Part shown: one piece after another, positions 16,058 through 33,655 of the stretch
How the letters are laid out: the number at the start of each line of letters is the position of its first letter
Position numbering within the stretch: position 1 is the stretch's first letter
DNA from: a virus
IMG/VR virus record: IMGVR_UViG_3300037493_002968
Location: 1 to 33,655 of that record
DNA length: 33,655 nucleotides
Strand: one strand, 5' to 3'
Program-made: the position numbers and the translations under genes
The notes under the pieces: model-generated
What the model was told of the DNA's origin: nothing
The model's input: the letters and a program-made list of their open reading frames with translations, nothing else
The model's database searches: none

Positions 16058-16225
16058 TTAACTCTGAGTGGTTAAAATAAACTTTATTTTGTCATCCCGT
16101 TTTAAGTGATTAAGTTCAGGATATTGCTCAGATAGTTCAGCATCGGTTAAACTATTGAGTTTAACAAGTAACAACATTGTGTTTGGTGTTAACTTGATTT
16201 CTTGGTTAGAATGGGTTATCGTCAT
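16058..16225 (-). CDS. Small unknown protein after dnaB
   Basis: A 55-residue protein, MTITHSNQEIKLTPNTMLLL and then LNSLTDAELSEQYPEL. I start it at the ATG 16223-16225, which overlaps the dnaB end by 20 nt. A longer frame is open to a TTG at 16270 but that start is less likely. Two short helices are predicted. Function unknown. Confidence 0.5.
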   Translation of the reverse strand: MTITHSNQEIKLTPNTMLLLVKLNSLTDAELSEQYPELNHLKRDDKIKFILTTQS

Positions 16226-17609
16226 TGTAATGATTTGATTGAAAGTTAAACTTAGTTGATTCGATTTCAACGGGAAGGTAAGAACTCATCGGCTGCTGGT
16301 CGGCATCGTAAAAAGATGTTATGGTTTGATTGTTTCTAAATTCCACAGTTCCGGTAGAACCTTGACGGTGCTTTTCAAATAGGTAAAATGTTTCGTTCGT
16401 AAATGGCTTACCTTCATCGTTCGATAAGTTGTAGTACGATGGTCTCCAAACAAAGCAAACCGTATCTGCATCCTGTTCAAGGGATCCTGATTCACGAAGG
16501 TCTGAAAGCATCGGTTTTTTATCTGATCGTTGTTCGACTTGTCTGTTAAGTTGACACAATGCGATTATTGGTATCTGTAGTTCCTTTTGTGCTGCTTTTA
16601 GCGTTCGACTTATTTCTGATACTTCCGCTTCACGATTACCGCCCCTAAAGCCCTCTAATGTCATTAATTGCAAATAATCAATTATAGCCCATTTGCACTG
16701 ACCTTTTCTAACTTGTTGACGGATAACTCGAATTGCTTCGTGAACACCGCATCTTGGTTTGTCGTAAATGGTAAACGGCATCTTTTCAATTTCGCCAATG
16801 GTCGATTCAAATACGTGCAATTCGGGTTGGTTTAAGCTGCCGTCCCTTAAGCGTTTAGAATCGATGCTTCCGGTAGCGTTCTGAAGTATTAATCTTTGAC
16901 AAAGTTGTGATGGGTTCATTTCTAAGTTAAAATAGATACCAGGTTCTTTCGATTGAATCCCGTGAAATAATGCAAGTGCGGTTTTACCCATTGAAGGTCG
17001 ACCAGCTAAGATTATAAATTCAGGTTGCCAACCGCCCGTGAATCTGTTAAGTGCTTTAAGTCCTGTATGAACTCCCGATGTTTTGCCTTGTCGGTTTAGT
17101 TCTTGCCGTCTGAAATAAGCCTCACGTTCGTCTTTGACAAGTTCGGTAGTGGTAATGATATTTGATACAGTCATACCCGTATCCATTAACTCATTCAATC
17201 GTTTGACCATTTCAGTTGCGGTAACGGTCGCATCGTGCCGGTCGTACAATCCGATTGATTCTTCAGTAATGATTTGGTGAATTTGCGATTTCAGATAGAT
17301 GTTACGAAGTTCCATTATGATTGCTTCGTGCGGTTCGAAGAAAGCTGAAACTATTTTATCTAATGAGCGGATAATTGTTATTATGTCGGAATGTTCAAGC
17401 AGCTTGGCAAGTTTATTTTCTTGGCTAAGAAATGCAATGTCGATTGGTAACTTTTTTTTGTGAAGTCGCTTAATTACTTCGAATGCTTTTTTGTATCGAT
17501 CGACTGTAAAGTATTCGTATTTGAGTTGAACGATGATTTCGTCTTTGAATTGATTTGAAGATAGCAGAATCGCTATGATCTTTTCTTCGAGTTCTTGTGA
17601 TGTTATCAT
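16206..17609 (-). CDS. dnaB: Replicative DNA helicase, DnaB family
   Basis: A 467-residue hexameric helicase. The N-terminal domain (1-110) is the DnaB helical collar. The RecA-like C-terminal domain has Walker A GRPSMGKT at 203-210, Glu230 (FNLEM), Walker B WAIIDYLQL at 307-315, the LCQLNR motif at 351-356, and LSDLRESGSLEQDAD at 368-382, all as in bacterial DnaB. It is full length, and I see no primase or intein insertion. It lies 4 nt overlapped with the initiator gene upstream. The pair of initiator and helicase next to each other is the usual phage replication set, and the probable origin is in the upstream gene. Confidence 0.96.
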   Translation of the reverse strand: MITSQELEEKIIAILLSSNQFKDEIIVQLKYEYFTVDRYKKAFEVIKRLHKKKLPIDIAFLSQENKLAKLLEHSDIITIIRSLDKIVSAFFEPHEAIIMELRNIYLKSQIHQIITEESIGLYDRHDATVTATEMVKRLNELMDTGMTVSNIITTTELVKDEREAYFRRQELNRQGKTSGVHTGLKALNRFTGGWQPEFIILAGRPSMGKTALALFHGIQSKEPGIYFNLEMNPSQLCQRLILQNATGSIDSKRLRDGSLNQPELHVFESTIGEIEKMPFTIYDKPRCGVHEAIRVIRQQVRKGQCKWAIIDYLQLMTLEGFRGGNREAEVSEISRTLKAAQKELQIPIIALCQLNRQVEQRSDKKPMLSDLRESGSLEQDADTVCFVWRPSYYNLSNDEGKPFTNETFYLFEKHRQGSTGTVEFRNNQTITSFYDADQQPMSSYLPVEIESTKFNFQSNHYNDDNPF

Positions 17610-18286
17610 TTGTAATGGTTTTGTGATGATCGGTTATACTGAATTTGTTGAGTGACTTTATTGTTTTGTGATCCAACCGGAAATAAGCCGGTCCAACCTT
17701 TCATTATTGATTGGTTGATTCCTTTGATTGCTTCTTCAGGTGATTTGTAAAGTTTACGCATTTCGGAAACTAATAAATCTGCAGCACGTTGGGTAACTGG
17801 TTTCTTAGTTTCAATTCTATTCTGCAGAAATTCGATAAAGACTTTGTTCACGTTTTCATTTTCGGAATAGACCTTTGTTAAATCCGCCCCTTTTGTCTTT
17901 ATAGTCTTTATAGTCTTATCTGTCTTAATAGTCTTATTATGTGTCCAAGTGCTTTCCACGTGCTTTTCATTTGCTTTCCACGTGCTTTCCAAGTGCTTTC
18001 CATTTAATGGAAGGCATATTACTCTATTCTTATACTGATTTGTTGTTTTTGAAACGGTCTGCAGAAACCCAAATTTTTCTAATCGGTCAAGTGTTTTTAA
18101 CATCGTAGTTCGGGAATTGATACCGCAAGTTTCCTGAAGATCAATTAGGATAATTGCAAACTTATCTTTCCAGCCTGACTTATTTGCACGGTTAAGCAAT
18201 GCGAAATAAACTGCAGTGATGTATGGATCGACTTTATCGGGGTTTTCATCAATCCATTGATAGAAGTAATTGAAGTAATCAAACAT
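17606..18286 (-). CDS. Replication initiator, winged-helix, carrying intragenic iterons
   Basis: A 226-residue protein. Residues 5-95 look like a winged-helix domain (WIDENPDKVDPYITAVYFAL, LQETCGINSRTTMLKTLDRL, FGFLQTVSKTTNQYKNRV), a type used by phage replication initiators and DnaD-like helicase loaders. A low-complexity linker (about 97-130) is encoded by two sets of DNA repeats. A C-terminal helical part (RAADLLVSEMRKLYKSPEEA) may contact DnaB. It is followed immediately by dnaB. The start ATG stands 7 nt after the T9 tail of a strong terminator hairpin, so expression needs readthrough or a promoter close by. The role as initiator is inferred. Confidence 0.7.
   Translation of the reverse strand: MFDYFNYFYQWIDENPDKVDPYITAVYFALLNRANKSGWKDKFAIILIDLQETCGINSRTTMLKTLDRLEKFGFLQTVSKTTNQYKNRVICLPLNGKHLESTWKANEKHVESTWTHNKTIKTDKTIKTIKTKGADLTKVYSENENVNKVFIEFLQNRIETKKPVTQRAADLLVSEMRKLYKSPEEAIKGINQSIMKGWTGLFPVGSQNNKVTQQIQYNRSSQNHYK
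17895..17939 (+). repeat. Five AT-rich 9-bp tandem repeats (unwinding-region candidate)
   Basis: Units beginning GTCTT start at 17895, 17904, 17913, 17922 and 17931, each 9 bp (GTCTTTATA, GTCTTTATA, GTCTTATCT, GTCTTAATA, GTCTTATTA). They are AT-rich and lie next to the 11-bp array, an arrangement like the AT-rich region beside origin iterons. Because the period is a multiple of three they also encode a KT(I/D) repeat. Confidence 0.7.
17948..18002 (+). repeat. Five 11-bp iterons (probable origin)
   Basis: The ten-base unit GTGCTTTCCA or a one-base variant starts at 17949, 17960, 17971, 17982 and 17993, exactly 11 bp apart; three copies are identical. Eleven is not a multiple of three, so the repeat is not simply due to protein repetition. 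The period is close to one turn of DNA. A 7-bp inverted repeat TTCCATT/AATGGAA (17998-18012) borders it. Confidence 0.8.
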
Positions 18287-18292
18287 AACATC

Positions 18293-18368
18293 AAAAAAAA
18301 ACCCAATACAAGCTGCGGTGGAATCGGTTTAGTAGTGTTGACTACTTTACCTCGCAGCCCGTATTGGG
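18293..18368 (-). terminator. Intrinsic terminator before the initiator gene
   Basis: A 16-bp main stem (two G-U pairs on the minus strand) with inner stem is followed at once by nine T (18301 to 18293). It would end transcripts from the DnaA-like gene 7 nt before the initiator ATG. It forms the core of the structured RNA described above. Confidence 0.75.
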
Positions 18369-18406
18369 CGGTTTAATTTCTTTCTATTCAGGATTCCACC
18401 TCTGAA
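18293..18406 (-). ncRNA. Structured RNA / attenuator upstream of the initiator gene
   Basis: On the minus-strand RNA a 5-bp hairpin (18387-18391 with 18402-18406) has loop bases 18392-18400 (GGTGGAATC), which are exactly complementary over 9 nt to 18317-18325 (GATTCCACC), located inside the downstream hairpin. That hairpin pairs 18353-18368 with 18302-18317 over 16 bp, has a nested stem (18331-18336 / 18341-18346, loop of four) and ends in T9. The two non-Watson-Crick positions of the main stem are G-U on the minus strand and A-C on the plus strand, so the RNA acts in the minus direction. A loop-to-bulge pairing or a switch between forms is suggested. No known family recognised. Confidence 0.6.
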
Positions 18407-18451
18407 CGTGCTGTAAAGATAAAAATAAAATTGATTCGATTTAATTATTAT

Positions 18452-19078
18452 TTAGTAGTCTATACAACTTTCATCCCATTCAACCGCACTATTCATAATA
18501 ATTTCGTGGTCGAACACTCGCTTCATCATAAGGTAAGTTGAATCGTTTGTATCGATTAGATTTGATTCTGATAACTGGGCGTGATAGACCGTAGCGTGGT
18601 TAAAAGGTGTTGACCGTCCAATGGCTTCTGCAACGGCTCGACCGATCATAGCAAATCCGAACCTATCCCCACGGATTGAAAGCAGATAATTGAAGATAAG
18701 ATAACGCTTGTACACTTCATCAATTTCACGATTAAGCAGAACACGACCAAACATCTTAACAATGATTGAGTTTGCTAATTTCGCTTCATTAAGACAATCG
18801 TTATATCTTGAATTAAAATTGTATGATTTTGTTTTAACGGGAGCGTCTACAAATTCAGGTAATGTCTTTCTGATTCCTTTGGACCAATAATAAATGTGTT
18901 CCCAAAATGCATAACCTTCATCTGTGCCGGAAGGATGCCACGGTACTAACTTTAGAATAGCATCGGGTAAATCTCGCACGATTCTATTTTGGGTGGTGTA
19001 CTTATGGGCTAAGGATAAGTAAGGTTCGGGTAATTCTTCATTGATTACCTGATGTATAGTTTTTAGTGTAAAATTCAT
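18452..19078 (-). CDS. Protein with a DnaA domain IV-like C-terminal HTH
   Basis: A 208-residue protein. Residues about 122-170 (YKRYLIFNYLLSI, RFGFAMIGRAVAEAI, FNHATVYHAQ) resemble DnaA domain IV, in which an IGxxFGxRDHxTVxHA helix-turn-helix binds DnaA boxes. Here the core reads NHATVYHA at 160-167. The N-terminal half (residues 1-120) has no AAA+ motifs, so it is not a full DnaA. The gene lies just upstream of the structured RNA and initiator, which suggests a role in origin binding or replication control. Family membership is my pattern call, and the family of such phage proteins is mostly annotated as hypothetical. Confidence 0.6.
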   Translation of the reverse strand: MNFTLKTIHQVINEELPEPYLSLAHKYTTQNRIVRDLPDAILKLVPWHPSGTDEGYAFWEHIYYWSKGIRKTLPEFVDAPVKTKSYNFNSRYNDCLNEAKLANSIIVKMFGRVLLNREIDEVYKRYLIFNYLLSIRGDRFGFAMIGRAVAEAIGRSTPFNHATVYHAQLSESNLIDTNDSTYLMMKRVFDHEIIMNSAVEWDESCIDY

Positions 19079-23793: not shown

Positions 23794-24369
23794 TTAAGTA
23801 TTAATACTCATATCGCCCCGATCAATTGCTTTTTTAAATACTTCATCCAACTGGGCTGTAGATTCGTTAAGCATTCGTAAAAGATTAGAATATTCAACCC
23901 AATCTGTATCTTTATCGACTTGCTGAAGTAAAGCGTTCAACCCGACAATAGATCGTAACGGCTGTCTAAATTCGTGTGCAATGATCGACTTAATATCTTC
24001 AAGTTGCTTCTTTAGCTTTTCGTATTGGTGTGCGGTGGAACTTACAACATCAAATAAAAGCTGTCCAATTAAATAATATTCACCAGCTAAAAAGCAAACT
24101 TCCCAAATTACCCATCGATGCACACCGTTACGTTGGATGGTTCGGCAGTTAAATACCTTTGATTGGTTGTGATATATATCCGCCCATTTAAAACTACTTT
24201 CAACTTCTTCAATATCTTCAAGATCAGATACTAAATGTTTAAAATTAGTTGGCTTAATGTGTGCAAAAGTTGATCTGAATAATTCATTTCTATACGTAAT
24301 CTGTCCTTTTTTATCGCACTTAGCGTAAAGACAGGATGCAGAATTATCTAACAGAAACAATACAGACAC
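23794..24369 (-). CDS. PAS-DHp protein: histidine kinase-like without ATPase domain
   Basis: A 191-residue protein. Residues about 5-107 have the PAS pattern (SASCLYAKCDKKGQITYRNE, a loop region, RTIQRNGVHRWVIWE, EYYLIGQLLFDV), and 115-185 form the dimerisation/phosphoacceptor helices (HQYEKLKKQLEDIKSIIAHE, then FRQPLRSIVGLNALLQQ). The H-box is AHEFRQPLRSI with His132. There is no HATPase_c domain (no N box, DxGxG or GxGLG), and after the stop I found no remnant of one. It cannot phosphorylate itself but could take phosphate from, or form mixed dimers with, a host kinase. The start is GTG (24367-24369); no ATG is available before residue 166. Confidence 0.75.
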   Translation of the reverse strand: MSVLFLLDNSASCLYAKCDKKGQITYRNELFRSTFAHIKPTNFKHLVSDLEDIEEVESSFKWADIYHNQSKVFNCRTIQRNGVHRWVIWEVCFLAGEYYLIGQLLFDVVSSTAHQYEKLKKQLEDIKSIIAHEFRQPLRSIVGLNALLQQVDKDTDWVEYSNLLRMLNESTAQLDEVFKKAIDRGDMSINT

Positions 24370-26502: not shown

Positions 26503-28322
26503 TATGTTTGAGTTAGTGTTCCAAGCGTTGTATTGATTTGAATTATAGTACCAGCTACTCCATTGCTACCGTTTGCACCCGTTCCGCCCGTTCCATTTCC
26601 AGCTGTACCCATACCAGCAGTGCCACCAGCAACAGTTATTGTTCCTGTATTATTTATTGATCCATAAATTAAATACATATAACCGCCACCGCCACCGCCA
26701 CCACCACCGCCACCACCAGCGTTTGCACCCGTAGCAGCTGAACCGTTACCACCATTACCACCAATTGCTCTAATTGTACCTGAATTAATTAAGGAAAGTG
26801 CGTGAATATTTACTCCACGAACTCCGCTTCCACCGCCTCCACCTGATCCACCACCCGTACCACCACCACCACCAGCACCAGCACCACCGCCCGTACCTGA
26901 AATTGAACTAAACGGGAAATACATACCAAGCCAAAACGATTCTGTTATAGCATTTATGTAACGCTTCCCATCAATACCATTATAAACTGAAGTAACTGTA
27001 CCACTTGCACCTGGCGTTCCGCTTGGTCCCGTTCCACCCGTTCCACCACGACCGCCAAGACCGCCTAAATAAATAGATGCAGAAGCAACATTACCTGAAG
27101 CAGCACCGTTGGTTGTACTTCCGGCACCACCAGCTGTACCTGCTGGACCACCGTTTATAAATATTTCACCGTTGGTTGTATTAATTGCAGCTGCTATAGC
27201 AGTTGTTACACCACCAGCACCAACAACGCTAAATGAAGTTCCATTAGCACCATTGTTTCCAATTGTACCAATAGTTCCGCTGTTGGTCAGTGTTGCTTTT
27301 ACATAAACTTTGAATCCGTTAGTATTTAGCGTAACACCAACATTAACTGTTAGGTTATTGTAATACATATCCCTTGCCAATGTAGTATTAACAGAAATTG
27401 TAACATCACCATCAATACCAGCACCATAAAGAGTTACTAAAGCAGCATTTACAGGATCACTTTTAAACCCTTTAACCCCCGATGCATCGGTACCATAAAC
27501 TTTATTATTACCAGGAGTTGCAGCATCCCCATCAAGTTCAACATTATCAGTTACAATTTTAACTGACTTTGTTGTAGTTAAAGAATTTTGCTTTGCATTG
27601 ATTTGCGTTTGAATTGCAGAACTAACACCTTTGACATAACTCAACTCAGTCAGGCTTGGATAGGTAGCAACGGGCAAAGATGCCAAAACTCTGGCAGCGG
27701 TAAAATATGCGATCTCGTTAGCCGTTCCCGTTCCCGTCAAAGCATCTACGGGAGTGCCGTCTAAGTTAAGTGTCCAAGCTGTATAAGTTCCGCTTCCGGT
27801 ATGATATTTAATATCAACTACCAATGCACCCGTAGCAGCATTGTAAGAAGTAACTTCACCGTGCATATGATTAGAAACATCATAAACAACCAATATTTCT
27901 TGCAGCGGAATGTAAGATAGATTTGTACCGACAGTAAATGACTTTGAACCGTTGCTAACGCTGTTGGATGTGGTCGATGTTGTCTTATATCGGTCAGATA
28001 ACGAGTTAATAACTGGATCTGTTGCCGTTCCTGTTACAGAAATATTAGTTCCGGCATTAACCGAATTTACACTACCACCCCCACCACCACCGGTAGCAGT
28101 AATTAAAAATACATTAATTGCATCTCTTAAGTCGTTCGCATTTGCCTCGGATGGTGAAGTACAATCAGTGTAAAGAAACTCATAAATAACACCGCTGTAA
28201 TCTGTTAATCTAACAACATCTCCGAACGCTTGAACCTTAAGATTGTCTTTTCTAATGACAGTAGTTACAGCACCTTCAATCAATGAAATCGTTAAAGTCT
28301 GATTCGTAATGCTTAGTGCCAT
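26502..28322 (-). CDS. Tail fibre/adhesin with glycine-rich receptor-binding region
   Basis: A 606-residue fibre protein. The first 80 residues match the N-terminal module of the two preceding genes (VIRKDN, YEFLYTDCT, NANDLRDAI) and end in a Gly run (GGGGGG). The middle has a fibre segment (TYPSLTELSYVKGVSSAIQT) common in phage tail proteins. The last 250 residues are extremely Gly-rich, with blocks of the form (hydrophobic)-NSGTI or NTGTI followed by Gly/Asn runs (TLTNSGTIGTIGNNGANG, SLINSGTIRAIGGNGGNG, SINNTGTITVAGGTAGMG). This recalls polyglycine-II type adhesin domains of phage tail tips. It probably binds the host surface. The Gly-rich DNA is also a hotspot for repeats. Confidence 0.75.
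   Translation of the reverse strand: MALSITNQTLTISLIEGAVTTVIRKDNLKVQAFGDVVRLTDYSGVIYEFLYTDCTSPSEANANDLRDAINVFLITATGGGGGGSVNSVNAGTNISVTGTATDPVINSLSDRYKTTSTTSNSVSNGSKSFTVGTNLSYIPLQEILVVYDVSNHMHGEVTSYNAATGALVVDIKYHTGSGTYTAWTLNLDGTPVDALTGTGTANEIAYFTAARVLASLPVATYPSLTELSYVKGVSSAIQTQINAKQNSLTTTKSVKIVTDNVELDGDAATPGNNKVYGTDASGVKGFKSDPVNAALVTLYGAGIDGDVTISVNTTLARDMYYNNLTVNVGVTLNTNGFKVYVKATLTNSGTIGTIGNNGANGTSFSVVGAGGVTTAIAAAINTTNGEIFINGGPAGTAGGAGSTTNGAASGNVASASIYLGGLGGRGGTGGTGPSGTPGASGTVTSVYNGIDGKRYINAITESFWLGMYFPFSSISGTGGGAGAGGGGGTGGGSGGGGGSGVRGVNIHALSLINSGTIRAIGGNGGNGSAATGANAGGGGGGGGGGGGYMYLIYGSINNTGTITVAGGTAGMGTAGNGTGGTGANGSNGVAGTIIQINTTLGTLTQT
28076..28322 (-). repeat. Fibre N-terminal module, copy in the 606-residue gene
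   Basis: About 240 bp coding the shared N-terminal domain and Gly hinge. An imperfect copy in the same orientation lies at 28765-29015. Identical short stretches (such as GCATCTCTTAA) show common origin; many silent and coding changes have collected. Confidence 0.7.
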
Positions 28323-33018: not shown

Positions 33019-33655
33019 TTATTTTTTGGTTTTAAGATCGTCCTTTGTAAAAAGTGGCTTGTTGGTGTCAACAGTTGAAGCCTTAGCAACAGTCTTGCGA
33101 ACTGGTGTCTTATAAGTTTGATTCAACTTAGCGTTGATCGTTTCCATTGTTGCTGCGTATGATTCCATTTTAGCAGTTAGGTCATTAACCTGGGCTTTCA
33201 ATGTTTCATTTTCCGCTTTCAATGCTTCGATTTCCATTTCTTCTTCTTCAGTAACTGAAGCTGCAATGATTTCAGTAATAACACCTTCGAAAACACGGAT
33301 AACAGTGCCATCGGTTAAAGTGTAGTCACCGTCATTAACTGGTGTTCCATCTTCGTACTGAACTGCATTACCCGTTTCAGGTGATTCTGTTTCAGTAACG
33401 ATGTTGATTCTTGAGCCATCTTCTAACTCTACTATCATTGCGTTAACTTGTTCTGTGAACTCGTTTTTAATTCCGAGTTTCTTGCTAACATTCGAAAAGA
33501 ACGAATTTAGCTTTGCTTCGATGTGGTTCATAATTGATTTATCTGATTGGTTTATTGGTTTTTCTTGAATTCTTTCAGCTGCTTTTACACCGGTAACTAT
33601 TTCCTGAATAAATCCTAACTCCATAGCTTGATCGGCTGTGAATGAAGTTTCTTCT
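33019..33655 (-). CDS. Prohead protease/scaffold fusion; C-terminal part (entered from the junction)
   Basis: This is the remainder of the ClpP-like protease, covering about residue 142 to the stop. After the protease domain comes a segment with the pattern DGTPVNDGDYTLTDG and VFEGVITEI, a short beta-rich domain I associate with Bacteroidota phage protease-scaffold proteins. A strongly charged coiled coil (EEEEMEIEALKAENETLKAQ, about 85-100 residues from the end) and a basic tail follow. Protease and scaffold fused in one chain is a known arrangement in HK97-fold phages, where the scaffold is cut out after assembly. The stop lies 8 bp before the capsid gene start, fitting co-expression. The internal Met at 33624 is not the real start. 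Confidence 0.85.
   Translation of the reverse strand, partial: EETSFTADQAMELGFIQEIVTGVKAAERIQEKPINQSDKSIMNHIEAKLNSFFSNVSKKLGIKNEFTEQVNAMIVELEDGSRINIVTETESPETGNAVQYEDGTPVNDGDYTLTDGTVIRVFEGVITEIIAASVTEEEEMEIEALKAENETLKAQVNDLTAKMESYAATMETINAKLNQTYKTPVRKTVAKASTVDTNKPLFTKDDLKTKK
33448..33655. repeat. Right copy of the terminal repeat
   Basis: This is the same 208 bases as the start of the window, with T instead of G at the position matching base 128. In the protease it changes residue 169 from Ala (left copy) to Glu (right copy). It is either a true variant in the phage population or an error near a contig end. Confidence 0.95.

Follow-up and report, generated by a model that had tools for sequence, protein, structure and literature searches.

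The 33,655-nucleotide stretch of viral DNA analysed here, referred to as the window, very probably carries a theta replication origin embedded in its own initiator gene. The gene (17606-18286, minus strand) encodes a protein of 226 residues, characterised by its translation, PHROGs, AlphaFold and fold matches. Inside it lie two arrays of direct repeats, five 11-bp units and five AT-rich 9-bp units. The features computed here are the arrays, their conservation at the DNA level in all codon phases, a change of the unit flanks with the DNA-binding domain, the domain layout of the protein, a low duplex stability and the identity of the neighbouring genes. An origin at this place had been proposed in an earlier note, and the proposal is supported by a PHROG match of the initiator, by the DnaB gene next to it and by repeat spacing that is kept among relatives.

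The iteron array is located at 17944-18002 (minus strand), where TRF reports five 11-bp units with 83% match and no indels. On the coding (minus) strand the units read GGAAAGCACTT, GGAAAGCACGT, GGAAAGCAAAT, GAAAAGCACGT and again GGAAAGCACTT. Their AAGCA cores, at 17994-17998, 17983-17987, 17972-17976, 17961-17965 and 17950-17954 (minus strand), start at positions 289, 300, 311, 322 and 333 of the initiator gene. On the C-terminal side of this array follow five TAAGACTAT-like units of 9 bp (17895-17939, minus strand), a candidate DNA-unwinding element that codes for KTIKTDKTIKTIKT; GTCTT recurs on the plus strand at 17895, 17904, 17913, 17922 and 17931, in exact 9-bp steps. The exact 11-bp and 9-bp spacings described earlier are confirmed. 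That the 11-bp units fall on the same face of the helix, as also suggested, holds only approximately, since at 10.5 bp per turn an 11-bp step drifts by 17 degrees and an 11.5-bp step by 34.

The 11-bp periodicity is far from what is expected by chance. The highest lag-11 self-match of any 61-bp stretch in the phage is 41 of 50 positions, and 300 Markov genomes gave no more than 31 of 50. When the protein sequence was kept constant, the signal was reached in none of 10,000 codon resamplings and in none of 10,000 synonymous permutations. For the 9-bp signal, 259 of the 10,000 resamplings and 150 of the 10,000 permutations came up to the observed value (1.5-2.6%, p ~0.02), so this periodicity is mostly due to an in-frame KTI/KTD peptide repeat. 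It had been claimed that selection acts here on the DNA; this stands for the 11-bp array, given the shuffles and its frozen codons, while the 9-bp repeat is mostly driven by the peptide.

These numbers bear directly on an explanation in which a repetitive linker peptide has produced the repeats as a side effect, without any function at the DNA level. The linker is indeed disordered in the structural model, and the 9-bp array keeps the reading frame and is within reach of the shuffles. However, no shuffle that preserves the protein attains the signal of the 11-bp array, the core of this array occurs in three codon phases and is read in other frames in relatives, and the synonymous codons of the array are frozen. 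A peptide-repeat origin of the 11-bp array is ruled out by the codon shuffles, the codon phases and the frozen codons, and we give almost no credence to the explanation as a whole.

An inverted repeat (17994-18016, with arms 17994-18004 and 18006-18016) lies at the upstream end of the iterons and is a possible extra half-site in reverse orientation. Its codons, for residues 93-94, are frozen among relatives, and it is fully retained in L011 and L013 and in part in L002 and L007.

The relatives, 33 distinct genes, were collected by scanning viral contigs together with named phages; they are not fully independent, as several contigs are near-identical, and all counts therefore refer to sequences and not to events. 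In about 30 distinct relatives the array is retained at the same place, starting at gene position ~289-302. Comparison of the repeat spacing in related phages was one of the checks proposed in the earlier note, and the origin reading withstands it: AAGCA cores are 11 or 12 bp apart, and when the 132 intervals between RRGCA cores are pooled, 11 bp occurs 81 times, 12 bp 33 times and 22-24 bp 12 times, the last corresponding to one missed unit. Clades A (that of the window), C and E keep 11 bp nearly throughout, while both spacings occur in B, D, F, G and Danklef_1. No AAGCA core is present in L008, where by eye similar units are still 11/12 bp apart, and the linker of L026 is poorly periodic. 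Danklef_1, a Polaribacter phage and an independent isolate, has nine AAGCA units 11-12 bp apart at the same place.

The core is found in all three codon phases, and relatives translate the same DNA in other frames. Further, in gene pairs with less than 75% nucleotide identity, the sharing of synonymous codons at same-residue columns is 1.94 times the expectation for the 11-bp array and 1.46 times for the AT array, compared with 1.06 and 1.12 times for the two folded domains. The signal in the AT array is centred on its first unit, ATAAGACT, which is conserved at the codon level among relatives. The flanks of the units differ between clades: TGGAAAGCAC in A, ACCAAAGCA in C, D, E and G, ACCCAAGCAG in B, and GACAAAGCAC in Danklef_1 and L026. 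These clade-specific flanks track the presumed recognition-helix sequence of the DNA-binding domain. A profile search of the related loci with profile A2 gave no conserved stretch.

The AT-rich array is the fourth least stable 45-bp site of the phage, with a dG of -46.6 versus a mean of -56.3; only 0.13% of positions are equally unstable. Further AT-rich sites are found at 18414 and 23435, and SPP1 has two origins (PMC6316719). The main origin could accordingly be elsewhere in the phage, with the array described here being a secondary or vestigial one. Against this, there is no second array of the 11-bp type elsewhere in the phage, and the pattern of conservation indicates that this array is under strong purifying selection as DNA. 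We consider such an arrangement highly improbable. GC skew, proposed earlier as a check, does not locate an origin: its sign flips at module borders, at ~14.5-15.5 and ~23 kb. The window contains three DnaA boxes versus 6.4 expected, none of them close to the iteron array.

According to the AlphaFold model, which was built with 21 sequences, residues 1-95 or so of the initiator form an N-terminal winged helix (pLDDT mostly 80-92). A disordered linker (96-134) separates it from a helical C-terminal domain (144-195) of three helices. The disordered residues are encoded by ~17885-18001, that is by both arrays. Residues 49-218 match PHROG 678, "replication initiation O-like" (phrog_678), at E=4.7e-12, and the protein also matches further initiator PHROGs. 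No Pfam family matches at E<=0.1, including the lambda O-type initiator models and RepA_N (PF06970), and a search of the initiator profile against PDB chain sequences gave no match. No bacterial genome carrying the initiator was confirmed.

Fold comparison of the winged-helix domain gives matches of many kinds. RepA_N initiators (4pql, 4pt7 and 5kbj) score Z 9.0, 8.7 and 8.6 and are not separated from Zur (9.2) and LexA (8.9); MarR-type proteins score alike, and most of the matches are transcription regulators. The latter fits an alternative in which the array is an operator for autoregulation of the initiator, or serves DNA organisation only, with replication starting elsewhere. However, the array comes after the start codon, at a distance of about 410 bp from the promoter box that precedes the upstream RNA described below. 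It is also paired with a low-stability AT-rich array and a DnaB gene, in keeping with known origins of this kind (SPP1, lambda and pSK41; PMC6316719, PMC7466680, PMC5703833). We find this alternative very unlikely.

Directly after the initiator comes the gene of a DnaB-type replicative helicase (16206-17609, minus strand; Pfam DnaB_C, E=2e-76), which overlaps the initiator stop codon (ATGA) and confirms the dnaB neighbour named earlier. The DnaB gene is also downstream of the initiator in most relatives. No lambda P-like or other loader gene was identified.

The other neighbour had been described as DnaA-IV-like, which is borne out by the fold and not by Pfam. In the product of 18452-19078 (minus strand) the C-terminal half, residues 97-198, resembles the M. 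tuberculosis DnaA-DBD with Z 10.0 and an rmsd of 2.4 over 88 residues. Its four best fold matches are all DnaA (Z 10.0, 7.5, 6.8 and 6.8) and the first unrelated one scores 5.9; there is no match to Pfam Bac_DnaA_C, and Foldseek alone gave nothing significant. The counterpart in Danklef_1, near and upstream of the initiator, does match Bac_DnaA_C (2.7e-11). A divergent version (37%) is present in L006 and L009, and the gene was not found in most of the relatives' loci.

Binding, melting, helicase loading and the start of replication at the array are what we infer from these observations. In the origin reading, the N-terminal winged helix would bind the five 11-bp units as a multimer, and this would strain the adjoining AT-rich 9-bp array until it melts. 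The C-terminal domain would then help to load the phage's own DnaB, the product of the next gene. The DNA that codes for the disordered linker would be free to hold cis-acting sites.

An iteron origin inside an initiator gene is, as a general plan, already known. In lambda (O/ori-lambda) and in Stx lambdoid phages, iterons and an AT-rich tract lie in the middle of the initiator gene (PMC7466680, PMC3349717). The likeness to lambda O noted earlier, with units unlike those of lambda, is upheld: here too iterons are joined to an AT-rich tract mid-gene. However, lambda has four 18-bp iterons with short spacers in place of five contiguous 11-bp units; DnaB is phage-encoded here, no lambda P-like loader was identified and the initiator has no Pfam match. 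In SPP1 the origin-binding protein gp38 binds direct repeats in its own gene at oriL, beside an AT-rich unwinding element. SPP1 also has its own DnaB-family helicase (gp40) and a dedicated loader (gp39), and oriR is its second origin (PMC6316719). The phage described here likewise has direct repeats in the initiator gene beside an AT-rich tract, and a DnaB-family helicase of its own, but its initiator gene overlaps that of DnaB, and no gene for a loader was identified.

The third comparison is with the RepA_N plasmids. In pSK41 and pPR9 a winged-HTH N-terminal domain binds repeats in the centre of its own gene; the origin-encoded linker is dispensable as protein and the C-terminal domain is separate (PMC5703833). 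The chimeric plasmid pPR9, set against pSK41, has the N-terminal domain and the origin swapped together while the C-terminus is constant, and the rep leader is regulated by RNA (PMC5703833). The phage shares the origin-type repeats in the DNA of a central linker and the joint swap of N-terminal domain and repeats under a constant C-terminus. In contrast to the plasmids, its initiator has no Pfam RepA_N match, its repeats are contiguous with 11/12-bp spacing and its own DnaB gene adjoins. The RNA also differs: it is a sense-strand RNA that has a promoter box and a terminator of its own, and not a known antisense RNA.

The initiator of Danklef_1 (QQV90525.1, MT732458) has a homologous N-terminal domain (32%), an AT-rich repeat after the linker units and a DnaA domain IV gene upstream. 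It differs in being annotated as a "transcriptional regulator", in its C-terminus and in the lack of the upstream RNA. By analogy, the best reading is that the site of the phage works like those of lambda O, SPP1 gene 38 and the RepA_N plasmids. New here are the contiguous 11/12-bp units, their modular link to the DNA-binding domain and the uncatalogued structured RNA ahead of them. A limited search of the open-access literature turned up no account of iteron origins embedded in initiator genes of Bacteroidota phages.

The modularity is seen in both directions among the relatives. In L008-L010 the C-terminal domain of the window is combined with a different N-terminal domain (~37%) and different repeats, while L011 and L013 retain the N-terminal domain and the repeats with a different C-terminal domain. 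It should be kept in mind that the coupling between N-terminal domain and repeats may partly reflect physical linkage within one recombination unit. Covariation of the C-terminal domain with DnaB was also considered and gave no clean coupling: L007 has a different C-terminus and 89% identity in DnaB, L002 a similar C-terminus and 64%. C-terminal segments of these initiators recur in genes whose N-terminal domain is unrelated (Pfam DUF6291), and several of these genes contain 10-11-bp arrays of their own with 6-bp AT-rich repeats behind them.

Such arrays could offer a means of locating origins from sequence alone and supply candidates for small replicons. Further, the natural pairs of DNA-binding domain and iterons form a series from which recognition rules might be read.

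Upstream of the initiator, folding of the leader predicts a structured RNA of 112 nt (18294-18405, minus strand), with a hairpin P1, a terminator-like long stem followed by a T-run, and a pseudoknot. In the pseudoknot, of 8-9 bp, the loop of the 5' hairpin (18392-18400) pairs with a segment inside the stem (18317-18325, minus strand). The T-run ends 7 nt ahead of the initiator ATG. A predicted promoter box, TATCTTTA (18414-18421, minus strand), precedes the first base of the RNA by 8 nt and is of the Bacteroidota -7 type. In 50 of 51 distinct copies a TANNTT[TA][GA] box, known as the Bacteroidota -7 element, is present 5-8 nt upstream of the RNA start; at shifted positions it occurs in 14, 8 and 1 copies.

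Copies of the RNA were found by a motif scan and a covariance model, the latter giving 53 matches at E <1e-9; examples are L003:4687-4797, L029:2202-2306 and L099:629-738. Of the 46 distinct exact-motif matches, 17 have no pseudoknot partner and were left out, and most of these look like one protein-coding gene. In 11 of the 13 phage records checked there is one forward-strand copy per phage. Another 21 genome stretches with the 19-base motif of the RNA had weak model scores (19-31 bits) and were taken as chance. Searches of Rfam 15 gave nothing at the gathering threshold and chance matches only at a permissive threshold, BLASTN against named phages and plasmids gave nothing credible, and Danklef_1 has no copy.

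Over 46 distinct sequences, 98.1% of cells are paired, versus 29-44% with the partner slid by 1-3 columns, figures that are tilted towards the structure, since the alignment was fitted to most of it, except the pseudoknot. Both sides have been altered in 26 of 34 pairs. For the pseudoknot, all 13 variants are fully complementary over 8 bp, with 19 loci that were not selected by the motif included.

The RNA is found upstream of the initiator and on the same strand in 25 of the 28 model-scanned initiator loci with upstream sequence, and at least five more initiator loci carry it by motif. In most loci it is followed by the initiator directly or after one ORF. In most relatives (for instance L061, L065, L056, L055, L042 and L063) the RNA and the initiator are separated by a small ORF of ~64-67 aa that often overlaps the initiator start; it is missing in the window, L008, L009 and L044. 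DUF6291-type initiators are also preceded by the RNA, with initiator-like genes of this type following it in L100, L109, L114, L090, L106, L123 and L125.

From its position the RNA may control the expression of the initiator. With a terminator-like end just before the ORF, the initiator would be reached from this promoter only by read-through, which suggests that the RNA is an attenuator. The main alternative is a stand-alone small RNA. In the attenuator reading, a transcript from the Bacteroidota-type promoter would form a pseudoknotted leader with a terminator at its end, a few nucleotides short of the next ORF, and the initiator operon would therefore be expressed only on terminator read-through. 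Beneath the RNA the winged-helix and DUF6291 N-terminal domains would be swapped, each with its own 10-12-bp repeats. That the cassette unites an origin with a new RNA family, an attenuator setting phage replication and common to two initiator types, is a tentative proposal that we find possible and lean slightly away from. If true, this structured RNA would act as a new regulator at the head of replication operons in phages.

The record probably represents a complete genome of 33,447 bp. This agrees with a terminal direct repeat (1-208 and 33448-33655) of 208 bp with one mismatch, 99.5% identical by BLAST; a check for exact terminal repeats of at least 30 bp gave none. Among named records, the terminase is closest to that of Bacteroides phages, and Flavobacterium and Polaribacter phages also match. 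Together with the promoter box, these matches indicate that the host phylum is probably Bacteroidota, a dominant phylum in the gut and the sea.

Two further regions of the window may be mentioned. A small protein encoded at 23794-24369 (minus strand) contains a weak HisKA-like stretch (Pfam E 9e-5, under the curated cut-off), which is unusual for a phage this small. At 26682-26888 (minus strand), within a protein of 606 aa, there are low-complexity glycine-rich repeats made of ACC/CCACCACCAGCA units.
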